Shown in pieces: positions 14,845 through 59,983 of a stretch of 64,000 nucleotides of DNA. Within the stretch, counting starts at the first letter, position 1, and each line of letters begins with the position of its first letter. The notes beneath the pieces are model-generated. The model was given only the letters and a program-made list of their open reading frames with translations, was not told the origin of the DNA and did not search any database. This stretch comes from Cryptosporangium minutisporangium (GTDB lineage Bacteria > Actinomycetota > Actinomycetes > Mycobacteriales > Cryptosporangiaceae), in contig NZ_BAAAYN010000001.1 in NCBI RefSeq assembly GCF_039536245.1, forward strand, positions 93,008 to 157,007. The letters run 5' to 3'. The translations under genes were made by a program, and so were the position numbers.

Positions 14845-15198
14845 CGGTCCGACCGAACCGCGTATTTCGCAGCTCCGGCCCACTCGAGTTAACCGGACTT
14901 AAGGGAGAGTCACGCTGCGGAGCGAATTCCCACACCGCCGCAGACTCTCTTCGTCGCGGCGATAGGCGATTCGCGCGGAAAGGCCGACCTCTGCCAGAAG
15001 TCCTTCAAGCGGGCGTTAAGTGGCATGTAAAGAACGGGTCAGGCTCTTCGCAAGACCGCATCGCACCTGGTGAGGTGGGTTCCGGATCAGCGCGGCACGG
15101 CGTGCAGATGCCGAACCCGGACGGCCTCGACCGCACGGGAGGCCAACGACGCTGCCGCGCGAAGCACTATGGACAGCACTAGGTCAGCAGGAGCATTC
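14845..15198. other. 354-bp leader region of the LPMO gene
   Basis: No gene with codon bias is visible here. A loosely matching promoter (TTCAAG, 18 nt, TAAAGA) lies in the middle around 15001-15035 within a slightly AT-richer patch, giving a long 5' leader of about 160 nt. I looked for riboswitch-like conserved blocks, including a ydaO-type pattern that sometimes precedes cell-wall genes, and saw none. AGCAGGAGC before the ATG at 15199 is the ribosome site. Confidence 0.4.
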
Positions 15199-16164
15199 AT
15201 GACTCTCGGTAACAGGTTGACCCGCCTCGCGGCGGCGTCCGGCGCTACCGCGGTGGCCACGGCCGCGCTCGTCGGTTTCGCGGGAGTCCCCGCCCAGGCC
15301 CACGGGACGTTCGCCGGCCCGGTCAGCCGCGTCTACTCCTGCTACCTGGAGAACCCCGAAGCACCGAAGTCGGCGGCGTGCAAGGCCGCGGTGGCGGTCA
15401 GCGGGACGCAGGCGTTCTACGACTGGACCGAGGTCAACATCGCGAACGCGGCCGGCAACCACCAGGCGCTGATCCCCGACGGCAAGCTCTGCAGCGCCGG
15501 CCGGGCCAAGTACGCCGGCCTCGACCTGGCCCGTTCCGACTGGACCGCGACGAAGTTGCCGACGAGCGGCTCCTTCACGTTCTCGTTCAAGGCGACCGCG
15601 CAGCACAAGGGCCGGTTCGACCTCTACGTCACGAACAGCACGTACCGGCCCACCCAGCCGCTGAGGTGGTCGAACCTGGAGGCCACCCCGTTCCTCTCGG
15701 TCACTGACCCGGTCGCGGTCAACGGTGCGTACCAGCTGACCGGCCGGCTGCCCGCCGGTAAGACCGGTCGCCACCTCGTCTACGGGATCTGGCAGCGTTC
15801 GGACAGCCCGGAGGCGTTCTACGCCTGCTCGGACGTGGTGTTCGGGTCGGAGAGCAGCTCCGGAGGCGGCACCGTCGTCACGCCGACCACGCCGACCACG
15901 CCGGCGGCCACCGCCTCGGCGGCGCCGAGCAACTCGGCGTCTCCCAGCGCCTCCGCGTCGTCCTCGCCCGGCGGCTGCGGGACGTCGTCCGGTCACCACC
16001 ACCACCGCCGCACCGACCCCAGCGCCACGGCGGTGCGCAAGGCCAGCAGCAACAGCACGCTCGCGCCGGCACTGACCGGCTCCCTCGGCACCGCGTTCCT
16101 GTTCGCGATGGGGACTGCTGCCCTCTTCGTCGGCCGCCGCTACATCGGCAAGCACCGCCACTGA
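15199..16164 (+). CDS. AA10 lytic polysaccharide monooxygenase with C-terminal membrane anchor
   Basis: A 321-residue secreted copper oxidase that would cleave chitin or cellulose. Signal peptide residues 1-34 end AQA, leaving His35 as the new N-terminus, the first ligand of the copper histidine brace (HGTFAGPVSRVYSCYLE). The second ligand is in GNHQALIPDGKLC. Catalytic domain to ~215 (YGIWQRSDSPEAFYACSDVVF). Then comes a Thr/Pro/Ser linker, a His-rich patch (GHHHHRR), and a transmembrane helix near 295-312 with a basic tail (RRYIGKHRH). Most AA10 enzymes are freely secreted, so a C-terminal anchor is uncommon. It lacks an LPxTG motif. Confidence 0.9.
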   Translation: MTLGNRLTRLAAASGATAVATAALVGFAGVPAQAHGTFAGPVSRVYSCYLENPEAPKSAACKAAVAVSGTQAFYDWTEVNIANAAGNHQALIPDGKLCSAGRAKYAGLDLARSDWTATKLPTSGSFTFSFKATAQHKGRFDLYVTNSTYRPTQPLRWSNLEATPFLSVTDPVAVNGAYQLTGRLPAGKTGRHLVYGIWQRSDSPEAFYACSDVVFGSESSSGGGTVVTPTTPTTPAATASAAPSNSASPSASASSSPGGCGTSSGHHHHRRTDPSATAVRKASSNSTLAPALTGSLGTAFLFAMGTAALFVGRRYIGKHRH

Positions 16165-16285: not shown

Positions 16286-16840
16286 ATGTCCCTGGCTACC
16301 GCCATCCCGAGCAGCCGGTCCACGACGAACGAGGCTCACCTGGTGCCGCCGCCTCCGCGCCACGCGGTGCGGGCCGCCTACGCCGCCGCTGCTTCCGCCA
16401 CGATCGGCTTTCTTCCGCTGCACGTGATCTGGGCGCTGGGCATTCCGCTCTTCGCCGACCCTGACCTGTTCCGGCCCTGGTACCAGGACGGCGGCGGCGT
16501 CTATCTGCTGACGCTGAACCTGCTGGCGCTGCTGCCCGCGGTGCTGGCCGTCGCGTTGATTCGCCCCTGGGGCCTGGTCTTCCCCCGCTGGGTGCCGATC
16601 GTCCGCGGTCACCGAGTGCCCCGGATGCTCCTCATCGCACCCGGTGCTGCGCTCTCCGGCTTCCTCCTCGCCTACACCGCGTTCGCCGCGGTCCTGATGC
16701 CCCTCCAGTGGGACGACCCGGCCGCGATCTTCGACCCCCGCACGGGCATCTACGGGATCGCACAGTTCCTGGTCTGGATCGCGGGGCTCGCGATCGCCAC
16801 CCGCTCCTACGCCTGCCGCACCCGCCCGAACGCCAGCTGA
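16286..16840 (+). CDS. Four-helix membrane protein with RPWG...PRWVP...RGHRVP motif
   Basis: A 184-residue integral membrane protein of about four helices (around residues 32-50, 70-90, 110-132, 150-170). Its central loop RPWGLVFPRWVPIVRGHRVP is shared, with the surrounding helices, by three proteins of the 54105-56534 operon, so it is a detached paralogue of that set. Function unknown. ATG at 16286 is preceded by GAGGAGG (16274-16280). A 30-bp palindrome lies upstream. The gene is convergent with an MmcQ-like gene, 2 nt away. Confidence 0.7.
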   Translation: MSLATAIPSSRSTTNEAHLVPPPPRHAVRAAYAAAASATIGFLPLHVIWALGIPLFADPDLFRPWYQDGGGVYLLTLNLLALLPAVLAVALIRPWGLVFPRWVPIVRGHRVPRMLLIAPGAALSGFLLAYTAFAAVLMPLQWDDPAAIFDPRTGIYGIAQFLVWIAGLAIATRSYACRTRPNAS

Positions 16841-36993: not shown

Positions 36994-38136
36994 ATGAAGC
37001 TGACCGGCCCGTTCGCGCGCTGGCCGCGGGGTTCGGACGCGGTGCTGGCCGTCGTGCTGTTCGTCGCGGCGGTGCTGGTGATGGAAGGCCCCGGCGATTC
37101 GTTGCGGGTGCGGCCGGTCACCGACGTTCCGCTCGCGGTACTCCTCGTCCTGGCGGTAGCGGCGGCGGCGCTCTACCGGCGGCGGCGTGCGCCGGTACCG
37201 GTGCTGGGAGTCGTGCTCGCGTGCTGGTTGCTGCTCCTGTTCACCCGCGACTACAGCATCGGCTTCATCATGATCGCCGCGCTGTACAGCGTCGGCCGGT
37301 ACGAGACGAGCAACCGGAAGGGAGCGGCCGGGCTCGCGGCCGCGCTCGTGCTGCTCCTCCTCGACGGTGTCGTCCGGTCCGAGCCCTGGAGTGGGACCAG
37401 CTTCGGTGTCGTGTTCCTGTTCGTCACCTGGTACATCGGGCGGCGCCTGCGACTGCGCAAGGACCTCGCCGAGCAGCGACAACGCCAGCGCACGGACGAG
37501 TTGCGGCGGATCGTCGCGGAGGAGCGCACCCACATCGCCCGTGAGCTGCACGACGTCGTCGCCCACCAGGTGAGCATGATGACGGTGCAGGCCGGGGCGG
37601 CCCAGGCCGTCGCCGCTACCGACCCGGACGGCGCCCGGCAGGCGATGGCCGCGGTCGAGCAGGCCGGGCGCCAGACGCTGGACGAGCTGCGGCACCTGCT
37701 GGGTGTCCTCCGGCCGCAGCCCGAGCGCGACGGCACCGGCCCGCAGCCCGGGCTCGCCGACCTGCCCCGGCTCATCGACCAGGTCAGCGCCGCCGGGCTG
37801 GACGTCCGCATCACCGACGACCTGCGGAGCCCGCTCCCCACCCGGGTGCAGTTGTCGGCCTACCGCATCGTTCAGGAAGCATTGACCAACGTGCTGAAAC
37901 ACGCCGGGACCGGCACCCGGGCCGACGTGCACCTCCGAGAGGACGGAACCGACGTGGTCATCGAGGTCACCGACTCCGCCGCCCCGGCGTCGGCCCAGCC
38001 GCAGGCGGCGGGGCACGGCATCGTCGGCATGCGCGAGCGCGCGACCCTGCTCGGTGGCTCCCTGGAGGCCGGCTCCTGCCCCGGGGGCGGTTTCCGCGTC
38101 GTCGCCCGCTTCCCGCGGGACGGAGTGCCCGCGTGA
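36994..38136 (+). CDS. NarL/DesK-type sensor histidine kinase
   Basis: A 380-residue membrane kinase. About four to five N-terminal helices (residues ~15-150) are followed by a HisKA_3 dimerisation helix ERTHIARELHDVVAHQVSMM with His186 as phosphoacceptor, then the ATPase domain (N-box YRIVQEALTNVLKHAG, G-box GHGIVGMRERATLLGGSL). No large sensor domain, so the membrane part probably senses the signal, such as a cell-envelope drug. ATG at 36994 with GGAGGAA. Its stop overlaps the response regulator start (GTGAG). Divergent from the MMPL transporter. Confidence 0.93.
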   Translation: MKLTGPFARWPRGSDAVLAVVLFVAAVLVMEGPGDSLRVRPVTDVPLAVLLVLAVAAAALYRRRRAPVPVLGVVLACWLLLLFTRDYSIGFIMIAALYSVGRYETSNRKGAAGLAAALVLLLLDGVVRSEPWSGTSFGVVFLFVTWYIGRRLRLRKDLAEQRQRQRTDELRRIVAEERTHIARELHDVVAHQVSMMTVQAGAAQAVAATDPDGARQAMAAVEQAGRQTLDELRHLLGVLRPQPERDGTGPQPGLADLPRLIDQVSAAGLDVRITDDLRSPLPTRVQLSAYRIVQEALTNVLKHAGTGTRADVHLREDGTDVVIEVTDSAAPASAQPQAAGHGIVGMRERATLLGGSLEAGSCPGGGFRVVARFPRDGVPA

Positions 38137-38810
38137 GCATCCGCGTCGTCGTCGCCGACGACCAGGCACTGGTCCGCGGCGGGTTCAGCATGATCCTGCG
38201 GACCCACGCCGACATCGACGTCGTGGCCGAGGCCGGTACCGGGCTGGAGGCCGTCGCGGCCGCGGAAGAGCACCATCCGGACGTCATCCTGATGGACATC
38301 CGCATGCCCGAGCTCGACGGCCTGGAAGCGACCGCGCGGATCCTGGCCGCCGCGGACTGGCCGGTCCGGGTCCTCATCCTGACGACGTTCGACCCGGACG
38401 AGTACGTCTACCGGGCGCTACGTGCCGGTGCCAGCGGCTTCGTGCTCAAGGACATTCCGCCGGCGGAGCTGGCCACCGCCGTCCGGACCGTCGCGGGCGG
38501 TGGTGCGCTGATCGCCCCGTCGATCACCCGCCGCCTGATCGCCCGCTTCGCTGCGCGCCCTGGTGTCAACACCGTTGTCGCCGAGCGCGCGCAGCGGCTC
38601 ACCGATCGGGAGCGGGACATCGTCGTCGCGGTCGCGCGCGGCGCCACGAACACCGAGATCGCCGAGCGGCTGTTCGTCGGGCCGGCCACGGTCAAGTCGC
38701 ACGTCTCGAACATCCTGACGAAGCTGGGCCTCCGCGACCGCGCGCAGATCGTCGTCTTCGCCTACGAGAGCGCGCTGGTCGAGCCCGGCGATCACGACAT
38801 CGGCCGGTGA
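38133..38810 (+). CDS. NarL/LuxR-type response regulator
   Basis: A 225-residue regulator paired with the upstream kinase. The receiver has acidic D9-D10, phosphoacceptor D55 (ILMDIRMPELDG), the switch T (LTTF) and K (LKDI). The C-terminal LuxR helix-turn-helix is RLTDRERDIVVAVARGATNTEIAERLF...ATVKSHVSNILTKLG. GTG start overlaps the kinase stop. Its last 19 bases overlap the 3' end of the frameshifted minus-strand gene. Confidence 0.94.
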   Translation: MSIRVVVADDQALVRGGFSMILRTHADIDVVAEAGTGLEAVAAAEEHHPDVILMDIRMPELDGLEATARILAAADWPVRVLILTTFDPDEYVYRALRAGASGFVLKDIPPAELATAVRTVAGGGALIAPSITRRLIARFAARPGVNTVVAERAQRLTDRERDIVVAVARGATNTEIAERLFVGPATVKSHVSNILTKLGLRDRAQIVVFAYESALVEPGDHDIGR

Positions 38811-49634: not shown

Positions 49635-49701
49635 TGGTAGCCCGCCTTCCGATTCGCGCATGTCGTGTCGGTTGGTTCGCGGTCGGTAGGAGGTGATCGG
49701 A

Positions 49702-50907
49702 GTGGTCGCCGCCGAAGCCCTCGATCGGACGGTCGTCACCGTCGCAGCGCGGTCGCTCCGCGCCCGCCTGCCCGAGCTCACCGACCACCTGGTGGGAGAA
49801 TTCGCCGTCCGCGAGGAGCTGGTCCTCGCCGACGAGGTCCGCACCTCCCTCGCCCAGCTCTGCGCGGAGGGTCTGCGGGCTGCGATCACCACCCTGGAAC
49901 AGCCCGACGGCGACCGCGCCGACCTGCGACTGGCCGCCGAAACCGGAACGCTCTGGGCCACCCGGGGTCTGCCACTGGACTCGCTGCTCCGGCTCTACCG
50001 GCTGGCTGGACGGCTGCTCTGGGAGAACCTGCTCCAGGCGGCCGGGCCAGCCGGCGCCAGCACGCTGGCCTACCAGGCCGGAGCCGTCCTGCGCGGCATC
50101 GACCAGGAGTCGACGGCGGCGGCCGCGGCCTACCGACAGGCCGAGCGGCGCCTGCTCCCCCGTGGGCTCCTCCGTGTGGCGGCGGCGATCGACGCGCTGC
50201 TCAGTGGCCGACCGCCCGACGCCACCGAGCTGGAGTCCGCCGCGGACCTGCTCGAACTTCCGCTGACCGGGCCGTACGTCGTGGCCGTGCAACGACCGGG
50301 GGCGCAGCGCTCGCTGGTCGCCGCGCACGGCCGCACCTCCCACCGGGGCATGCGGTTCTGCTGGCGCCGCGGCCGGGACGCCGACCGGGTCCTGGTACTG
50401 CTCGGCAGCGCCGGCCCGGACGACGTCGAAGCGGTGCTGCGCCCGCTCACGCTGCACCACGTCGGCATCGGCCTGCCGGTCGCCGGCTTGGCGGAGGTGG
50501 CGAAGAGCCACCGCTACGCGGAGCTCGCGGTGCGCAGTTGCCGGGCCGACGGGCCGGAGATCGCCCGGTTCGACCGTCGGCTTCCACAGGGCCTCCTCCT
50601 GGCCCAGCCGGAGCTCGCCGACGACCTGGTCCGCGAGGTGCTCGGCGCGGTGCTCGTCCTGCCCGCGCGCTACCGGGAGGCGCTGCTGGACACGCTGGAG
50701 GCGTGGCTGTGCTGCGACGGCTCGGCGGTGGCGACGGCCCGCGCGCTCTACTGCCACCGCAACACCGTCCTCTACCGACTACGCCGGCTGCAGGAGCTGA
50801 CCACCAGGTCGCTGGGCAAGCCCTGCGACCTGGTGGACCTCACGCTCGCGCTCTACGCGTTCCGCGCGTCCCCGACGCCGAGCACCGCTCGGGCCAGCGG
50901 CGCGTAG
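49702..50907 (+). CDS. PucR/CdaR-type transcriptional regulator
   Basis: A 401-residue regulator. The N-terminal ~170 residues are helical (RsbR/sensor-like, LRARLPELTDHLVGEF ... LDSLLRLYRLAGRLLWENLL). A degenerate GGDEF-like CdaR region follows, and the C-terminal PucR helix-turn-helix is GSAVATARALYCHRNTVLYRLRRLQELT. GTG at 49702 is chosen because the perfect AGGAGGTGAT Shine-Dalgarno (49688-49697) precedes it; an upstream GTG at 49693 lies inside that site. The gene's 3' end resembles a fragment at 60922-61005. Target genes unknown. Confidence 0.88.
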   Translation: MVAAEALDRTVVTVAARSLRARLPELTDHLVGEFAVREELVLADEVRTSLAQLCAEGLRAAITTLEQPDGDRADLRLAAETGTLWATRGLPLDSLLRLYRLAGRLLWENLLQAAGPAGASTLAYQAGAVLRGIDQESTAAAAAYRQAERRLLPRGLLRVAAAIDALLSGRPPDATELESAADLLELPLTGPYVVAVQRPGAQRSLVAAHGRTSHRGMRFCWRRGRDADRVLVLLGSAGPDDVEAVLRPLTLHHVGIGLPVAGLAEVAKSHRYAELAVRSCRADGPEIARFDRRLPQGLLLAQPELADDLVREVLGAVLVLPARYREALLDTLEAWLCCDGSAVATARALYCHRNTVLYRLRRLQELTTRSLGKPCDLVDLTLALYAFRASPTPSTARASGA

Positions 50908-51997: not shown

Positions 51998-53239
51998 ATG
52001 ATCGAGGTGCAGTTACACACTCCGGACGACTGGCGGCAGTTCCTGCGCGACTGGAGTGCCGAGTGGATCAGCGCGGCAGCCGAGGAGCCAGACCGTCAAC
52101 GCATTCCGGCCGAAGTGGTGGAAAGCGGCTGGCTCGGGTACGACCCAGCGACCGAGGAGGTGATCGGCGCCGCCGAACAGCGCCTCGGCACCCGGCTGCC
52201 GCCGTCGTATCGCCAATTCCTCGCGATCAGCGACGGATGGCGCAACACCAGCCCGTTCATCGACGACCTTCTCCCGGTTGGTGAAGTCGGATGGTTCCGG
52301 GACTTGAACACCGACTGGCTGAGGGCCTGGGCCGAGGGCGCCGGTACCGACCAGGAGGACCTCGCCGTCCTGCTGGGCGATCTTCCGGCCGACGAGGACG
52401 AAGGCGAACCCGACGTGATGTTCGAGGTCGTATTGATGGCGCGCGCACTGCAGATCTCCGGCCGCGGGGACAGCGCGGTCCTGCTGCTCGATCCGGACGG
52501 GGCCGGCCCGGACGGCGAGTGGCGCGGCTACTTCTTCGCGAACTGGCAGGGCGCGTTGGGAGGCGGCTCGCCTTCGTTCGCGGCGCTGATGCGATCCGAG
52601 CACCAGACCTTCGTCCGGCTCAACCAGCCCGCCGGCCCGACACTCCAGGCCGTCGTCGAGCAGACGGGCCGGGCCCGGCGGCTGCTGCTGGACGGCCGGC
52701 TCGACGAAGGGCTGCCGCTGCTCGTCCAAGCCCGCGAGTACGGCCTTCCGCTCGCCGAACTCCTCGACGCCCAAGCGCAGTTCCTGCTCGGCGACTCCTC
52801 TCAGGCCCAGTCCAATCTGCGCATGGTGTTCCCCCACCATCACCCCGAACTGGCGACCGACCGGTTCATCGCGAGCGAGATCGTGCCGCTGCTGCTCGGG
52901 GGCCACAACGAGTACCACGTCACCAACTACCGGACGCAGCGAACCGATGCCCTGGCCACCCTGCTCAACGACCGGGTAGCCGACCCCGATGCACCGATCA
53001 CCTTCGCCGATCCCCAGTTCGACGCGGCGGCCCGGCACGCGCGCGAGCTCGTCGCGGCCGGTCGGCTCGACGACGCCTGGAACGCGATTGTCGCCGCGCT
53101 GCCCGCGTGGCGGGCCACCAGCCAGTACGCACTGTTGCCGGCCGGACTGATCGCCGACCCGATTCTCGGAGCACTACTCGACGGGCCCGACCGCAAGGAG
53201 CGAGGTGAGGCGCTCCTGCGCACACCGCGCGATCGGTGA
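51998..53239 (+). CDS. SMI1/KNR4-family protein
   Basis: A 413-residue protein. The first ~200 residues form a SMI1/KNR4 (SUKH) domain: IGAAEQRLGTRLPPSYRQFLAISDGWR (residues ~56-82) is the family hallmark, with SAVLLLDPDG and the terminal WRGYFFANWQGALGGGSPSFAALM. The remaining ~200 residues are helical, TPR-like, and unassigned. SUKH proteins are often immunity proteins against contact-dependent or secreted toxins; no toxin gene is visible nearby, so the role is open. ATG at 51998 after GAGAGGCAG. Confidence 0.85.
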   Translation: MIEVQLHTPDDWRQFLRDWSAEWISAAAEEPDRQRIPAEVVESGWLGYDPATEEVIGAAEQRLGTRLPPSYRQFLAISDGWRNTSPFIDDLLPVGEVGWFRDLNTDWLRAWAEGAGTDQEDLAVLLGDLPADEDEGEPDVMFEVVLMARALQISGRGDSAVLLLDPDGAGPDGEWRGYFFANWQGALGGGSPSFAALMRSEHQTFVRLNQPAGPTLQAVVEQTGRARRLLLDGRLDEGLPLLVQAREYGLPLAELLDAQAQFLLGDSSQAQSNLRMVFPHHHPELATDRFIASEIVPLLLGGHNEYHVTNYRTQRTDALATLLNDRVADPDAPITFADPQFDAAARHARELVAAGRLDDAWNAIVAALPAWRATSQYALLPAGLIADPILGALLDGPDRKERGEALLRTPRDR

Positions 53240-53286: not shown

Positions 53287-53679
53287 CTACCGCGTCCTCG
53301 CGGCACTGTGACCGGCAAGCATTCCGAGGATCCCGGTGATCGCGGCGAATGCCAGTCCGAGCGTCATCACCGCCGTGCCAACGACGGTTCCCGCGTCCCC
53401 CGAGGTGAGGTTGGGAGTGAGTTGGTCGGCTGCCCAGCCACCAACAACGATCCACAATGAGATCAGCACCGCGAAGATCGGTGCCCACCAGCGGCCGGAT
53501 GCCAGCACTACCAGGGCAGCACAGACCACAAGAAAGACGATTCCCGGCGGAAACCCCGGGAATTTGGCTGGATCGGCGATCCATTGGACGATCAATCCCA
53601 GGACGCCGACCCCCAGCCCCGACAACGACAGCTTCGTGATCGTCGGCGTCCGTGAGAATCGTGCTGCGATCGACTTCAT
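53287..53679 (-). CDS. Four-helix membrane protein, last gene of the two-component membrane operon
   Basis: A 130-residue protein with four helices (residues ~16-33, 45-62, 65-85, 98-120). The segment GRWWAPIFAVLISLWIVVGGWA parallels VRWHFAPLLAVVMSALFLFGGLA in the next gene, so the two are paralogues of one small family. Function unknown. Forty bases separate it from the upstream gene, and all genes from 58392 down to here are on the same strand, so it is probably the promoter-distal end of one operon. Confidence 0.65.
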   Translation of the reverse strand: MKSIAARFSRTPTITKLSLSGLGVGVLGLIVQWIADPAKFPGFPPGIVFLVVCAALVVLASGRWWAPIFAVLISLWIVVGGWAADQLTPNLTSGDAGTVVGTAVMTLGLAFAAITGILGMLAGHSAARTR

Positions 53680-53718
53680 GGACTGGTCTCTCCTCGTTGC
53701 GGTGGCCTGCTGGTCCGG

Positions 53719-54123
53719 TTATCGCGTGCTGACAGCCGGTCTGGCGCGGCGCCGGCGCACAGCGGCTGTCCCGCAGATGACCGCTGCGGCGAAGCTGAGC
53801 ATCTGGAGCCATGCGGCGACGAACGCGAGATCTGTCGGGGCGGCGAGCCGCCTGGCGAAGTCGGCGTCCGCGAGTCCTCCGAAGAGGAAGAGGGCGGACA
53901 TCACCACGGCCAGCAGCGGCGCGAAATGCCACCGCACCGTCGCGAGGATGGCGGCGACGCCCAGGTAGATCAGGGGTCCTGGCCCGTCATAACCGGCCAC
54001 CAGGCTGCGCGACTCGATGATCTCCGGTCCGGCATCCCCAACCGCTGCCAGGACGAGGGCAACGCAGGTTGCGACGACCCACTTCCGGCGCGGATCCGTC
54101 TGGTTCATGCGCTCATTCGGCAT
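53719..54123 (-). CDS. Four-helix membrane protein (paralogue of the next gene)
   Basis: A 134-residue membrane protein with four helices (residues ~15-32, 45-62, 66-85, 98-120). The R-W-x-x-A-P-(L/I)-x-A-V motif in the centre is shared with the 53287 gene. It ends with a basic RRRRAR tail. ATG at 54123 overlaps the end of the truncated membrane gene upstream by 19 nt. Role unknown; membership of the two-component operon suggests an envelope function. Confidence 0.65.
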   Translation of the reverse strand: MPNERMNQTDPRRKWVVATCVALVLAAVGDAGPEIIESRSLVAGYDGPGPLIYLGVAAILATVRWHFAPLLAVVMSALFLFGGLADADFARRLAAPTDLAFVAAWLQMLSFAAAVICGTAAVRRRRARPAVSTR

Positions 54124-54443
54124 GGCTCGATCCTCGGGCGCGCATCCGCGATGGGCGTCAACTCACGGACGTATCGAAGGTACGTAAATCCGCGTAGCAC
54201 CCGGGTCATTCCGACGACGCCGAAGTAGGCGGTCAGGCTCCCTCCGACGAACAAGCCGGTGCCGAGCACCAGCCATCGCGGGACGGCACGGCCACGCAGT
54301 GGTAGGAACCAAGCGGGCCACAGTCGGCCCCAACGGTGCGCCAGAGCCAACGGCAACAAAGTTCCGGCCAGGCTCATCAGCACCATGAAACCGCCAGCGC
54401 GGTCGACGATGTGCCGTTGATCCGGGTGTCCGCGGACGGCCAT
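54105..54443 (-). pseudogene. Truncated membrane-protein paralogue with RWG...RGRAVPRWL motif
   Basis: The frame from 54443 encodes 112 residues. The part VLMSLAGTLLPLALAHRWGRLWPAWFLPLRGRAVPRWLVLG...GSLTAYFGVVGM aligns with the middle of the proteins at 16286, 54964 and 55512. The preceding helix and the last helix of those paralogues are missing, and the sequence before DRAGGF is not hydrophobic. It therefore looks like a 5'- and 3'-eroded copy, though a short functional protein cannot be excluded. The frame is open to 54590. Confidence 0.5.
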
Positions 54444-54505
54444 CCCCCGGCGACCGTATCGGCCAACCACACGCTCATCCGCGCCACGTGCCCGGCCACG
54501 GCAAG

Positions 54506-54950
54506 TTAAGCGCCGGCGAAGGCCCAGCCGAGGGCCTGGTCCAACCGGCTCTCCGGCGATCGGCCGTGGACGCGCCCGCAGAACTCGCACGGACGCGCGG
54601 CCAGTCGCCGTTCACCCGCGGCGATGATCAGGCAGAGCACTCCGCCACCGACGCCGAAGCCGGTGGCAAGCAGGCTGGTGACGATGCCTGCACCGACGCC
54701 CTCGAACAGCAGCGACACCAGGAGCACCGGGAACAAGAACGAATACACACACAGAGCGACGCCCGCGACCGCATCGAGCCCCGCGAGCGCGTAGCGGACA
54801 GCGTCGTTCACCTCGTGGCGGGCGCCGGCCGCAGCGGCGGCGCACCCGACAAGCGCCAAGACGCCGATAGCGACGGGAACCCATTCGCCCGGAAAACACG
54901 ACCAGCCGCGCTGGTCTGCTGGACCTGATCGCCTCGCGCAGCGGCGTCAT
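54506..54950 (-). pseudogene. Membrane protein gene with an apparent one-base insertion
   Basis: A plausible start ATG 54950 (TPLREAIRSSRPARLVVFSG) is in one frame. The body (VPVAIGVLALVGCAAAAAG ... LFEGVGAGIVTSLLATGFGVGGGVLC, three helices, then RPCEFCGRVHG) is in another, which has only a TTG start at 54859. Removing one G from the GGG run (plus-strand CCC at 54888-54890) fuses the two into a ~147-residue protein beginning 13 nt after the upstream stop, with AGGACGG as ribosome site. Genuine mutation or sequencing error. The C-terminal CxxC may bind metal. Confidence 0.5.
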
Positions 54951-54963
54951 CACGCTGCCCGTC

Positions 54964-55515
54964 CTATAGCGGGTCGCCGTCAGCCCGTCTCCGGGCCCAG
55001 TACGCCACGGTGACCGCACCGAGTAGCGGACCCCAGAGCACGAGCGGCGCGTAACACGCCGCGAAGAGGTAGGAATGCAGGTCGTCCGCTGCCCACGGGA
55101 CGGCCGACGGATCGGCGAGGGCGCCTCCGGTGATCGACCGGTTCCGCACGACCGCGACCGCCGCCGCGGTCCACAGGGCGGTCAGCGCGCTCGCCCCGGC
55201 GGCCGCGGCGAGCGTGGGTACCCACGGAGGGATCCGACGTCCACGCAGACCGGGAACCCATCCCGGGACGACCTCGCCCCACCGCGCGACCAAGCCGACC
55301 GCAGTGAACGCCACCAATTCGGAGACCACCGACAGGAAGGCCACGTAGATCGCCTCGCCAGGTCCAGCCGACTGGCGGAACGCGATCGCTCCGATGCGCC
55401 ACAGACCCGCCGGCAACACGCAGATCGGGATCGCGTAGGCGGCCAGTACGGCCCAGCCCGGGGCGTCGTGCACGGGCGTGTGGGCAGCCCTCCAGGCCGT
55501 GCGCAGCCGGCTCAT
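54964..55515 (-). CDS. Membrane protein with RWG...RGRRIP motif
   Basis: A 183-residue protein of about four or five helices. The central loop ARWGEVVPGWVPGLRGRRIPPW matches the paralogues at 16286, 54105 and 55512. ATG at 55515 overlaps the upstream stop (ATGA). It lies third after the two-component pair. Function unknown; the consistently charged R-G-R loop between helices two and three would sit in the cytoplasm or outside depending on topology, which I cannot fix. Confidence 0.7.
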   Translation of the reverse strand: MSRLRTAWRAAHTPVHDAPGWAVLAAYAIPICVLPAGLWRIGAIAFRQSAGPGEAIYVAFLSVVSELVAFTAVGLVARWGEVVPGWVPGLRGRRIPPWVPTLAAAAGASALTALWTAAAVAVVRNRSITGGALADPSAVPWAADDLHSYLFAACYAPLVLWGPLLGAVTVAYWARRRADGDPL

Positions 55516-56534
55516 GCCGGCCTGCCCGCGGTGAGGCCCGCTGGCGTGTGGCTGTCCGCGGAAACGGCACCGGCTCCGCGGGTCGCCCGGTGATAGCCGA
55601 CCGCGGTGGCGCCCAGCGCCACACCCCAGCCGACGAAGACCAGCAGCGTGGCCGCGACGGCCCAGCCCTCGGCCAGGTCCGACCAGGTTCGCGAACCGTC
55701 GGCGAGCGAGCGGACGAGCACACCGACGCTCAGCGCGCCGTACGTGACGAGCGCGACTGCGACGATCCCCGCGGGCACCAGCGCGAGCAGACGCGGGACC
55801 GCGCGGTCGCCGAGTGCCGGCACCCAGCGGGGAAACCGCTGCCCCCACGGTTGCACCAGCCCGAGCGTGAGCAGCCCGGCGAGAGGAGGAACCGCGGTGA
55901 TCGCCACCGCCGCCTCGAGCGACAGGTTCCGGCGGATGTCGTCGAGCTCCGTGGCGGCGATGCCGAACGGCACGTCCAGCACCCACAGCCCGTGCGGTAC
56001 TGCCCAGCCGAGGAGCGGCAACGCGACGGCGACGTAGGCCGAGCGGCGAGCCCAGGGCGCCACCGGCCGGTACGCGCTGTCCCGCGGCCGCCGAGGTGGG
56101 CTCAGTGTCGTCGCCAGCCCGGCGAGGGCGGCCGCACCCAACACCAGCGCCAGCCGGGCCAGCAGGTCCCGCCAGTCGGAAGGGCGGCCGGTCGCCGCAG
56201 CCGGGATCTGGAAGAGCAGGTGCAGGGGGAACGCGGCGGTGGCCAGAGCCGCGGCAGCCGCCCAGACGCTGCCCACCGCGACCGGCGAGCCGGGATGCCG
56301 CAGTGCCCAGCCGACGAGGACGGCCAGCGCGACGCAGACGCCGAGCGTTCCCCAGCCGGGCCAGAACGGCAACGACGTCACCTGCGCGGCGCCACAGCCG
56401 TTCGACGGGTCGCCCAGATCGGTGCGGTCACAGGCGGTGTAGCCCCAGCGACCGCCGGAGAGCCAGTACGTGCGGAGCAGCGCTTCGCCGGCCAGGAAGG
56501 TCAGGGCGGCCGTCGCCCAGAGTTTGTGTGCCAT
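55512..56534 (-). CDS. Large membrane protein with QPWG...PRWVP motif
   Basis: A 340-residue protein of about nine helices. The C-terminal half (VPHGLWVLDVPFGIAATELDD ... VQPWGQRFPRWVPALGDRAVPRLLALV ... ADGSRTWSDLAEGWAVAATLLVFVGWG) is the same module as the protein at 16286. The N-terminal half adds four helices and a loop with DPSNGCGAAQ. It is the first gene after the response regulator (38 nt gap). A GAGCCT box 6 nt before the ATG could give an extra leaderless transcript. Function unknown. Confidence 0.75.
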   Translation of the reverse strand: MAHKLWATAALTFLAGEALLRTYWLSGGRWGYTACDRTDLGDPSNGCGAAQVTSLPFWPGWGTLGVCVALAVLVGWALRHPGSPVAVGSVWAAAAALATAAFPLHLLFQIPAAATGRPSDWRDLLARLALVLGAAALAGLATTLSPPRRPRDSAYRPVAPWARRSAYVAVALPLLGWAVPHGLWVLDVPFGIAATELDDIRRNLSLEAAVAITAVPPLAGLLTLGLVQPWGQRFPRWVPALGDRAVPRLLALVPAGIVAVALVTYGALSVGVLVRSLADGSRTWSDLAEGWAVAATLLVFVGWGVALGATAVGYHRATRGAGAVSADSHTPAGLTAGRPA

Positions 56535-56572
56535 GCCTCCAGGCTCGCGAGAGCCCCGGCCCGGGAACTCCC

Positions 56573-57226
56573 CTAGAGGTGCCGGGCGCTTCCCTCTTCC
56601 GAGGGAGGGACCAGTCCGGCTTCGTACGCGACGATCGCCGCCTGGGTGCGGTCCCTGACCTGGAGCTTGGACAGCAGGTTCCCCACGTGCGTCTTCACCG
56701 TCTCGACGCCGACGTGCAGGGCAGCGGCGATCTCCGCGTTGGACCGGCCGGCGGCGAGCAGGCGCAGCACATCGAGCTCGCGCTGGGTGAGCGGAAGTTC
56801 GCGGGGTCGGCTGTGCGGCCGAGCCAAGCGGCGGATCGCCGCCGGGAACAGCAGCGAATCGCCACGAGTGACCACTCGCACTGCGTCGACGATCTGGTCC
56901 GGCGTGGCCCGCTTCAACAGGAAGCCGCTGGCGCCGATGCGCAGAGCGTCATAGACGTAGTCGTCGTTCTCGAACGTGGTGATGACCAGGACGCGAGGAG
57001 GCTCGGCCGACCGGGAGAGCAGCAGGCGGGTGGCCTGCAGTCCGTCGACGCCAGGCATCCGGACGTCCATCAGCACGACTTCGGGACGTGTCCGCGCCAC
57101 GATCGACAGCGCTTCGGCGGCGTCGGCCGCCTCCCCGACGACCTGGAGATCCGGTTCGTGGTCGAGGATCGTGCGGAGGCCGACGCGGACCAGCTCGTCG
57201 TCGTCCACGATCACCACCGTGGTCAT
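56573..57226 (-). CDS. NarL/LuxR-type response regulator
   Basis: A 217-residue regulator. Receiver residues are D8-D10, phosphoacceptor D54 (VLMDVRMPGVDG), switch T (ITTF) and K (LKRA). The C-terminal helix-turn-helix is LTQRELDVLRLLAAGRSNAEIAAALHVGVETVKTHVGNLLSKL. The ATG at 57226 overlaps the kinase stop (ATGA). It probably controls its own operon, including the membrane proteins downstream. Confidence 0.94.
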   Translation of the reverse strand: MTTVVIVDDDELVRVGLRTILDHEPDLQVVGEAADAAEALSIVARTRPEVVLMDVRMPGVDGLQATRLLLSRSAEPPRVLVITTFENDDYVYDALRIGASGFLLKRATPDQIVDAVRVVTRGDSLLFPAAIRRLARPHSRPRELPLTQRELDVLRLLAAGRSNAEIAAALHVGVETVKTHVGNLLSKLQVRDRTQAAIVAYEAGLVPPSEEGSARHL

Positions 57227-58392
57227 CGGCGTCCACTCCTCGGTAAGCAGATGGCCAGCCGCCAGCGTCCGCCGGTGGCGCCGCGCTCCACAGTTCCGCC
57301 GAGCAGGTCGGTTCGCTCGCGGATACCGGCCAGTCCGCGGCCGGATCGTCGGGTTGGGCCCTCGGCGACCGGGTTGGTGAACTCGATCCGGATCGCGTCG
57401 ACCGTGACCAGCACGCTGAGCCTCACCTCGCCCGGTCCGGCATGGCGGACGGCGTTGGTGAGGCCTTCCTGCACGATGCGGTAGGCCTCCCGGGAGACGG
57501 CGGCGGGTACCTCCGCCACCGGTCCGGTCTCCGTGTAGTTCAGTACGACGCCGCTGTCCCGGACGGTCGCGCAGAGCTGGTCGAGTTGGGTGAGATCGGG
57601 AGCGTCCGCCGGCTCGGCGACCCTGTCGTCGCCGCGGAGGACGCCGAGCGCGTGGTCGAGATCGGCCGCCGCCGCCCGGCCCACCTCTTCGATTTTCGCC
57701 AGCGCCCGCCGCGCGAACTCGGGGTCGGCGTCGAAGACGCGCTGGGCGGCGGCGACCTGCAGCGTGGTGGCCGTCAGCGCGTGCCCGATCGAGTCGTGCA
57801 GCTCGCGGGCGATGCGGTTGCGCTCGGCCAGCTTCGTCGTTTCAGCCTCCGCGGCCGCCACCCGCTCGGCCGCCTGATCGGCCGCCGACGGCCCGAGCAG
57901 GACGGGAGCCATCTGCCGTGCCAGGGCTCCGAAGCCCGCAACGACGTAGACGAGGGCGAGGGCGTAGACCGGCACGGCCCAGGCGGTGAGGCGGTAGACG
58001 AACGGGATGCCCGCAAACGTCAGCGCGCCGACGAGACCGCCGCTGACCAGATGGAGTGCGAACCACAACGCGGAGCGGAGCCGGGCCTCGCGGGACGGTC
58101 GCTCCGACGACTCGGCCGGGAGGTCAGCGTCGAGCAGCAGGCGGGCTGCGGCGATCTCCAAGGAGCGGAGAACGCCGAGAAACGCGACCGCACCCCCGGC
58201 GACCACCAGGATCAGCAAGGGGATCAAGCCGGCCCGCCAGCCGTCGCTCTGGACCGTCTGGGCGGTGGCCACCGCCCAGACGAGGTAGGGCAGCAGCAGT
58301 ACCGAGCCGAGGAAGAAGTACACGCCGCGCCGGTAGGTCGCGACACTGACCAGCGGCCCTGCGAAAATGACACCAGCGCCGGGGCGGGACAT
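57223..58392 (-). CDS. NarL/DesK-type sensor histidine kinase
   Basis: A 389-residue kinase. Four helices (residues ~22-160) precede AERNRIARELHDSIGHALTATT with phosphoacceptor His199, then the ATPase domain (N-box YRIVQEGLTNAVRHAG, G-box RGLAGIRERTDLLGGTV). ATG at 58392 lies exactly 6 nt after TAGCCT, so its mRNA is probably leaderless and this promoter would drive the whole operon down to 53287. No separate sensor domain. Confidence 0.93.
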   Translation of the reverse strand: MSRPGAGVIFAGPLVSVATYRRGVYFFLGSVLLLPYLVWAVATAQTVQSDGWRAGLIPLLILVVAGGAVAFLGVLRSLEIAAARLLLDADLPAESSERPSREARLRSALWFALHLVSGGLVGALTFAGIPFVYRLTAWAVPVYALALVYVVAGFGALARQMAPVLLGPSAADQAAERVAAAEAETTKLAERNRIARELHDSIGHALTATTLQVAAAQRVFDADPEFARRALAKIEEVGRAAAADLDHALGVLRGDDRVAEPADAPDLTQLDQLCATVRDSGVVLNYTETGPVAEVPAAVSREAYRIVQEGLTNAVRHAGPGEVRLSVLVTVDAIRIEFTNPVAEGPTRRSGRGLAGIRERTDLLGGTVERGATGGRWRLAICLPRSGRR

Positions 58393-58951: not shown

Positions 58952-59983
58952 TCAACGCCCGGCCGAGGTGGCGTCCGTTTCGCCCGCCGGTTCCCGCAGG
59001 ACCGGCAGCAGATGCTGGTGCACCAGCTCCAAGGCGGGCCGCCAGTCAACAGGTAGCTCGTCACGCGGCGGGGGCCCGGGGTCGAATCGAGGATCGCCGG
59101 TGGTGACCACCACGACGGTCGGGAGGATCACGACGTGCTGCCCGGCCCAGCCGCCGGCCAGCAGCATGTCGTCGCCGACCCAGATGCCGAAACCGTACGG
59201 CAGCTGCTCGGGTGGTCCGCCCGGCGTCTGTGCCGTCGTCATGGCGGCCGCGAAAGCCGGATCGACCAGCGGCTGCCCGCCGGCTCGCCACAGTTCCCCG
59301 AGCCGACCCAGAGCGTCGGCTGACAACCGCAGGTGCGCGAAGCCGTAGCTGACCCCGTCGGGATCCGCCGGCCAGGTCGCATCCCGGATGCCGAGCGGCG
59401 CGAAGAGCTCCGCAGCGGCGTAGTCGGCGACCGAGCAGCGGAGGATCTGCGACAGGCCAGCCGACAGCAGGTGCGCGGCGCCGTTGTCGTAGCGGAAGGC
59501 CTGGCCCGGCGTCCCGGTGCACGGCGCGGACGCGACCCGCGCCACCTGCCCGCCAGGCAGGGCGGTGATCGCGTCGATGTCCCACGCCCCGTCGACGGCG
59601 GCGCCACGGGTCATGGTCAGCAACTGTCGCCACGTCTGCCCGCGCGACGGGGTGTCCCGCAGTGCGGGCAGAACCGCGTGCAACGGCTCATCCAGACCGG
59701 GCAGTAACCCGCGGCGAGCGGCGATACCCGCCACCGTGGCGACGACCGTCTTGGTCACCGAGAACACGTCCGCGACCGTCGGACCACGGTAGTGCTCATC
59801 GAAGACCGGTAGCCCTTCGACGAGCACCCGGAGATGACTGGTGTGGGCATAACGCGGGTCCGACCGGACCGCATCCCCGATCCGACGGCCGGCGGCCCGG
59901 ACAGCGACTCGATCCAGCATCAGCCGAGACTGCCAGCCGCACGACCCACCCGCACCACCGTTTCCGGTTCCGCGGGTGATCAC
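58952..59983 (-). CDS. Serine hydrolase of the beta-lactamase class C / DD-peptidase fold
   Basis: A 343-residue enzyme without signal peptide. Catalytic SxxK is FSVTKT (residues ~73-78), the YxN motif is FRYDNGA (~168-174), and the third motif is replaced by AGGWAGQHVVI, as in 6-aminohexanoate-dimer hydrolases and related esterases. The absence of an export signal argues for a cytosolic esterase or amidase rather than a cell-wall enzyme. GTG at 59983 opens the frame; an ATG at 59920 (LDRVAVRAA) is an alternative. Confidence 0.85.
   Translation of the reverse strand: MITRGTGNGGAGGSCGWQSRLMLDRVAVRAAGRRIGDAVRSDPRYAHTSHLRVLVEGLPVFDEHYRGPTVADVFSVTKTVVATVAGIAARRGLLPGLDEPLHAVLPALRDTPSRGQTWRQLLTMTRGAAVDGAWDIDAITALPGGQVARVASAPCTGTPGQAFRYDNGAAHLLSAGLSQILRCSVADYAAAELFAPLGIRDATWPADPDGVSYGFAHLRLSADALGRLGELWRAGGQPLVDPAFAAAMTTAQTPGGPPEQLPYGFGIWVGDDMLLAGGWAGQHVVILPTVVVVTTGDPRFDPGPPPRDELPVDWRPALELVHQHLLPVLREPAGETDATSAGR

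Follow-up and report, generated by a model that had tools for sequence, protein, structure and literature searches.

A family of small membrane proteins with a shared tryptophan- and glycine-containing motif recurrently adjoins NarL-type two-component systems, most often in its two-repeat branch and across differing gene orders. The members considered here come from a 64,000-nucleotide stretch of Cryptosporangium minutisporangium DNA (contig NZ_BAAAYN010000001.1, positions 93,008 to 157,007, hereafter the window), where a NarL-type histidine kinase (HK) and response regulator (RR) are followed by an array of membrane genes, M1 to M6, and a further member, M0, lies apart (Table 1). We tentatively favour, at somewhat less than even confidence, the reading that the motif proteins are membrane-embedded signal-input partners of NarL-type kinases that have no outside sensor domain, with M1 and M2 standing in the usual partner's place in the window. 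As judged from sequence, the family is a candidate membrane partner for NarL-type systems that falls in no named Pfam, NCBIfam or PADLOC family among the proteins scanned. For many actinobacterial NarL-type kinases we know of no signal, and a family tied to them offers a specific protein that might supply the missing input (or output).

Family members recurrently adjoin NarL-type kinases

Linkage was counted in an order sample of 121 genomes from 50 genera, with a family member of a congener (M38b) as the query. Matches were present in 33 of the 121 genomes, at 51 places. A HisKA_3-type kinase lay within 3 kb of the family domain at 33 of the 51 places, as against 1 of 51 at a distance of 3.5-7.5 kb (Fisher 2e-12), the kinases in this count being found by motif with no similarity panel. 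The linkage is present in 13 of the 15 genera that have a family match. A conserved linkage of the family to NarL-type pairs in relatives, on which the original prediction had staked its proposal, is thus found. In the organism's own genome, four of the five family loci found adjoin a HisKA_3 kinase, with 68 HisKA_3 matches in 9.23 Mb; the probability of this by chance is 2.5e-5, or 4.2e-4 for three of four when the window locus is left out.

When adjacency was assessed by open reading frames (ORFs), whose ends are approximate, a kinase lay within 1 kb at 32 of the 51 places. The family gene (M) was divergent from the kinase in 12, upstream in the order M, HK, RR in 11 and downstream in the order HK, RR, M in 8, and the one 'convergent' case reflects an over-long ORF. 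The downstream order, which is that of the window, also occurs in seven genomes of family f3, genus g5 (taken as Micromonospora). In the congener G001, M overlaps HK by 4 bases. Separately, one locus (L099, 6283-8776, genome G314) carries three tandem family members beside one kinase-regulator pair.

These placements also bear on a close rival, a serious though doubtful possibility, in which the motif proteins are effectors, either membrane-protecting or transport proteins, switched on by the neighbouring regulator. Divergent (12/51) and downstream (8/51) positions are usual for regulated targets, and members also occur with no kinase detected nearby, at 18 of the 51 places in the order sample, as do the M1 orthologues and M0. 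Co-directional placement ahead of HK (11/51), in contrast, is less usual for a target.

The linked kinases form at least two well-supported groups in the kinase tree. By hydropathy, they have no large outside loop within the 260 residues that precede the His motif. The kinases examined have helices joined by short loops, apart from gaps of 32-55 residues between helices 2 and 3 in one clade, which would lie inside by helix count. In the window HK, the gaps between helices are 16, 32 and 17 residues. By analogy with LiaF (see below), a membrane partner serving as the signal input would be the simplest reading of these short loops.

The motif proteins are distant, partly doubled relatives of DUF3995

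The original prediction had noted three copies of one motif in the array and a fourth at 16286. The motif, WG...P-x-W...GR-x-(V/I)-P, is indeed present in M1, M2, the M4 remnant and the plus-strand M0, and by a 23-row alignment (A1) the four copies are homologous rather than alike by chance. In M1 numbering, L226, G231 and P235 are invariant in A1, and W230, W237, R244 and P247 are nearly so. The relatives aligned come from Micromonospora, Actinoplanes, Asanoa, Actinorhabdospora, Planobispora, Streptomyces and one Mesobacillus. The ATG of M0 at 16286 is backed by an orthologue in a congener (locus L040, 71% identity).

None of the membrane genes in the window has a Pfam match below E 0.12 or an NCBIfam match up to E 1, in agreement with the earlier statement that no transporter, enzyme or toxin family could be recognized. 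M1 has no match in either at E 1. Among the motif proteins scanned more widely, no Pfam cut-off was reached and there was no NCBIfam or PADLOC match at all; PADLOC likewise returned nothing for the seven proteins submitted to it. Titles and abstract openings in the literature searched contain no description of the motif family, and a literature search on DUF3995 returned nothing.

Profiles of the N-terminal and C-terminal halves match each other at 97.8% over 145 columns. Against DUF3995 (PF13160), the two halves reach 96-96.5% and the one-repeat members 98% over most of the domain (hhalign), while the controls, two sets only and both of kinase membrane regions, stay below 3%. By this remote-homology comparison (96-98% versus <3%), the family is made of homologous four-helix repeats, two in the larger members through doubling, and is a distant relative of the DUF3995 superfamily. 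The window proteins have no match to the Pfam model of DUF3995 at E 1, and so fall outside its gathering cut-off. Two outlying members match below the cut-off (1.2e-6 and 1.1e-4; 29.5 and 23.2 bits versus 34.3). DUF3995 is itself an uncharacterized four-helix membrane domain, which aligns with each half and with the one-repeat members; the rows of DUF3995 in this alignment showed no WG..W..GR-x-P loop, no doubling and no CxxC ends. At locus L049 (6090-8905, genome G156), three consecutive family-like membrane genes occur, one with a sub-threshold DUF3995 match, and a kinase was not detected near them.

Two other sub-threshold matches involve one family member each. L071 matches DUF3325 (PF11804; 2.6e-5, 24.8 bits, cut-off 26.8), and the M1 orthologue L011 matches Abhydrolase_9_N (PF15420) over 151 residues (6e-4, 20.3 bits, cut-off 27). 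Unlike the DUF3995 likeness, these did not recur in the other members scanned, and L011 has no attached hydrolase domain. They may reflect remote kinship or a common make-up of membrane helices.

An AlphaFold2 (AF2) model of M1 shows eight long helices with the motif between helices 6 and 7, at moderate confidence (predicted local distance difference test, pLDDT, 75; predicted template modelling score, pTM, 0.60). The model of M2 is of low quality (pLDDT 63, pTM 0.40). From the order and number of helices and from positive charge, the motif loop, the linker between repeats and the tail most likely face the cytoplasm; the 'envelope' role proposed at first gains no support from this. A fold search with the M1 model gave no match in the PDB at E 0.001 (best E 0.21), and the best VIA Z of 8.3, over residues 1-148 only, is within the range usual for helical bundles. 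The effector proposal is weakened here, in that no enzyme or transporter family cut-off was reached and no convincing match to a solved structure was found.

The array is a composite of separate units

The array genes are all on the minus strand with overlaps or short gaps from 58392 to 53287, as first described, and begin with a kinase followed by a response regulator. HK exceeds the Pfam cut-off for HisKA_3 (64.2 bits, cut-off 24) and lies slightly below that for HATPase_c (24.2 bits, cut-off 26.4); RR exceeds the cut-offs for both Response_reg (94.9 bits) and GerE (69.6 bits), and is 70% identical to a regulator in the congener G001. The pair is an ordinary member of the NarL/HisKA_3 systems of actinobacteria, from which it differs in reaching no NCBIfam equivalog cut-off among the matches listed; the definition of those systems includes no adjoining membrane family. 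Given that HK and RR overlap by 4 bases, that M1 and M2 do likewise, and that only 38 bases separate RR from M1, a single transcript from HK through M2 is plausible. A promoter scan returned no sites.

Table 1. Features of the window discussed in the text, with the evidence for each
Feature	Positions	Strand	Basis
HK, NarL-type sensor histidine kinase (HisKA_3)	57223..58392	-	HisKA_3 1.7e-17; about 4 membrane helices, no large outside loop
RR, NarL/LuxR-type response regulator	56573..57226	-	Response_reg 4.3e-27, GerE 1.7e-19
M1, two-repeat (8-helix) motif protein, 340 residues, no CxxC	55512..56534	-	AF2 model, homologues
M2, one-repeat (4-helix) motif protein, 183 residues	54964..55515	-	family alignment, tree
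M3 remnant, N-terminal half of decayed two-repeat member	54473..54913	-	CxxCGxxH linker, internal stop; L009 match
M4 remnant, C-terminal half of the same decayed gene	54204..54395	-	other frame, last helix missing; ORF extends to 54105
M5, small membrane protein outside the motif family, pair with M6	53719..54123	-	ORF, pairwise comparison
M6, paralogue of M5	53287..53679	-	pairwise E 3e-4
M0, lone one-repeat motif protein	16286..16840	+	alignment, tree; nearest kinase found 20.7 kb off
Array neighbours: SMI1/KNR4 protein, beta-lactamase-family protein	51998-53239 and 58952-59983		domain assignments

Six membrane genes had been counted in the array and described as duplicated and eroding, one of them truncated and one frameshifted. 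The erosion is borne out; the count is not, as M3 (54506-54859 as read) and M4 are, on their matches to locus L009, two parts of one decayed two-repeat gene of the family. The N-terminal half of L009 aligns with window positions 54913-54473 in one frame straight through a stop codon (38%, 1.2e-23), and its C-terminal half aligns with 54395-54204 in a different frame (72%, 2.7e-27). Because the two halves match across the stop codon and the frame change, M3/M4 is taken as a single pseudogene. The alignment starts at residue 27 of the N-terminal half as read and ends at residue 66 of 120 of the C-terminal half. L009, from Micromonospora sp. RHAY321, looks damaged too, its halves being in different frames. 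M3/M4 was also considered as a relic of the usual kinase partner. This was rejected, since both the CxxCGxxH linker and the best matches of M3/M4 point to the type represented by L009, L024 and L027.

The last two genes form a second paralogous pair, as had been proposed (M5 against M6, 31% over 74 residues). Homologues of M6 are found in 7 of 120 other genomes of the order sample. The two genes also neighbour each other in L123 (the M5 part, split over two frames, at 63-64%, M6 at 63%) and in L124 (51% and 48%), and M1-M2 was not seen in the 3.4-kb stretches around it in these two loci. By eye, a GntR-like regulator neighbours the pair in L123 and a divergent kinase-like gene in L124.

M1 is followed directly, with no kinase, by an M2-type gene in 6 of the 18 named M1-type loci, those among the 22 named loci that carry M1 homologues at 55-66% identity. 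HK-RR, M1-M2, M3/M4 and M5-M6 each occur separately elsewhere. The notion of one conserved six-part membrane system is therefore not supported, and the array is regarded as composite.

M1 is an exception within its clade

In a family tree of 103 rows, 38 carry the label 'linked', which stands for a kinase no farther off than 2.6 kb as detected with a similarity panel; on the tree this label requires 11 changes versus 31 in shuffles. The tree excludes L102-L104 (second copies of L008, L009 and L012) and domain matches shorter than 130 positions, among them the M4 remnant; L085 (2.84 kb) counts as unlinked here and as linked in the motif count.

Several observations weigh against the partner reading. 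The M1 clade holds 21 rows and is linked only in the window, the other 20 having no kinase detected nearby (the sequence of L021 stops about 1.4 kb past its M1), so that no kinase linkage was seen in M1's own orthologues. None of the 22 named loci (18 M1-type and four more distant) is linked. Among further loci of a phylum sample, 3 of 20 have a near kinase and 1 of 20 a far-band kinase; the search behind this sample gave matches in at least 19 of 296 genomes, an undercount with at most seven candidates scored per genome. One-repeat rows of the order sample are linked in four cases and unlinked in nine. L062 was counted as unlinked after failing the motif test, with a regulator directly upstream and a gene that is kinase-like by similarity. 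The query used on the order sample was taken from a locus with linkage, which favours that branch. Among the loci examined no ORF matched both M and HK, though no search was aimed at fusions as such. Directly 3' of M2, at 54916-54900, a terminator-like stem lends the partner reading no more than weak support, as five minus-strand sites lie in the region versus 1.8 expected. Finally, adjacency is equally compatible with M as a regulated target.

It is also conceivable, though unlikely, that the kinase-regulator pair is unrelated to M1-M2, to the decayed M3/M4 and to M5-M6, which would just happen to follow it, and that the linkage of the family does not apply to M1. The unlinked state of the rest of the M1 clade favours this, as do the separate occurrence of the three units elsewhere and the decay of the next gene block. 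The tight spacing from RR to M2 speaks against it, as does the kinase tree. There the window kinase groups with the kinases of G001 and G002 (98/92) and next with those of f3 (97/90), all of which are adjoined by a family member; a family member at exactly this site would therefore be unlikely by chance. The member adjoining the G001, G002 and f3 kinases belongs to a different family branch and stands in M1's place, so M1-M2 either replaced the usual partner or are chance neighbours.

Strict orthology of the window kinase with the kinase in the congeners is uncertain, since G000 and G001 pair in the M1 clade (100/95) and, with weaker support, in the M36 clade (99/62), whereas the kinase tree pairs G001 with G002. 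The window kinase sits on a long branch (0.87), which may reflect either fast evolution or separate acquisition. With M38b as the query, no gene of its type was found in G000, a draft assembly. The third congener, G003, gave no match to M2, the window kinase or M38b at the limits used.

Flanking synteny gave no sign of whether M1 or the kinase pair had moved, and the genes bordering the array matched none of 33 loci. Farther out, the gene at 43062-44099 matches L020 (57%) and L038 (35%), that at 48584-49510 matches L040 (35%) and that at 41901-43058 matches L040 at 29%; these look like members of large families rather than shared neighbourhoods. The plus-strand gene at 49693-50907 is 34% identical over 301 residues to M1's neighbour in G002 (L039, 6101-6985), possibly a trace of a shared neighbourhood or again a large family.

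Paired CxxC motifs in the two-repeat members

In many two-repeat members a CxxC motif ends each repeat, the first lying in the linker and the second in the tail. Among 71 distinct two-repeat rows, 24 have both motifs, three have the linker motif alone, no row has the tail motif alone and 44 have neither (Fisher 5.5e-16, or 2.4e-11 without the 21 M1-clade rows; both values are overstated, as the rows are related by descent). For this count identical domain sequences were removed and one- and two-repeat rows sorted by hydropathy, which placed L061, a fragment with a tail CxxC, among the one-repeat rows. For the tail motif a spacing of either 2 or 3 was accepted, and L078 therefore has both motifs in this count and not in the 103-row tree. 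Two of the three linker-only exceptions, L024 and L027, combine a linker CxxCGxxH with a single tail cysteine (TRPVC). The f3 group with the order HK, RR, M includes four members with both motifs and three with neither.

Such pairing is consistent with one shared metal site, possibly a putative zinc site, and points to a testable metal or redox site. M1 has neither CxxC and so shows no split zinc site; the first loop of M1 contains C35 and C47, nearly invariant in alignment A2. A wider proposal, which we consider rather unlikely, is that sensorless NarL-type kinases, taking their input from two-repeat, eight-helix partners with a cytoplasmic zinc clamp of one CxxC knuckle per repeat, would form a large unrecognized three-component class, the window representing a natural partner exchange that put a normally solitary, zinc-free M1 (plus M2) at the kinase.

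A possible mechanism and comparable systems

HK and RR make up a NarL-type two-component system, and the kinase lacks an outside sensor domain. M1 and M2 come from a family built of one or two copies of a four-helix repeat, the last of which carries the probably cytoplasmic motif loop. If the motif proteins are signal-input partners, the membrane protein would read the state of the membrane and signal to the kinase through this loop and the tail, and the regulator would then control its own locus. In the window, where the usual partner type is missing, M1-M2 occupy its place, either as a substitute partner or as chance neighbours.

VraTSR, with VraT, is a comparable three-component system. Pfam showed no LiaF-type C-terminal domain, in its customary definition, either in the motif proteins of the window or in those family rows that were scanned. 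LiaFSR and VraTSR combine a NarL-type kinase free of a sensor domain with an adjoining membrane protein, and in LiaFSR this is LiaF, described there as an accessory negative regulator (PMC3543457). The motif proteins differ in having four or eight helices and in lying upstream, downstream or divergent.

Other features of the window

A second HisKA_3/NarL kinase-regulator pair, at 36994-38810 on the plus strand, has a DUF7134 membrane region; an adjoining motif protein was not found. Directly upstream of M0, at 15070-16164 on the plus strand, lies an LPMO_10 lytic polysaccharide monooxygenase gene. In the congener G002 (L040), the M0 orthologue follows a gene that by eye resembles an extracytoplasmic function (ECF) sigma factor.

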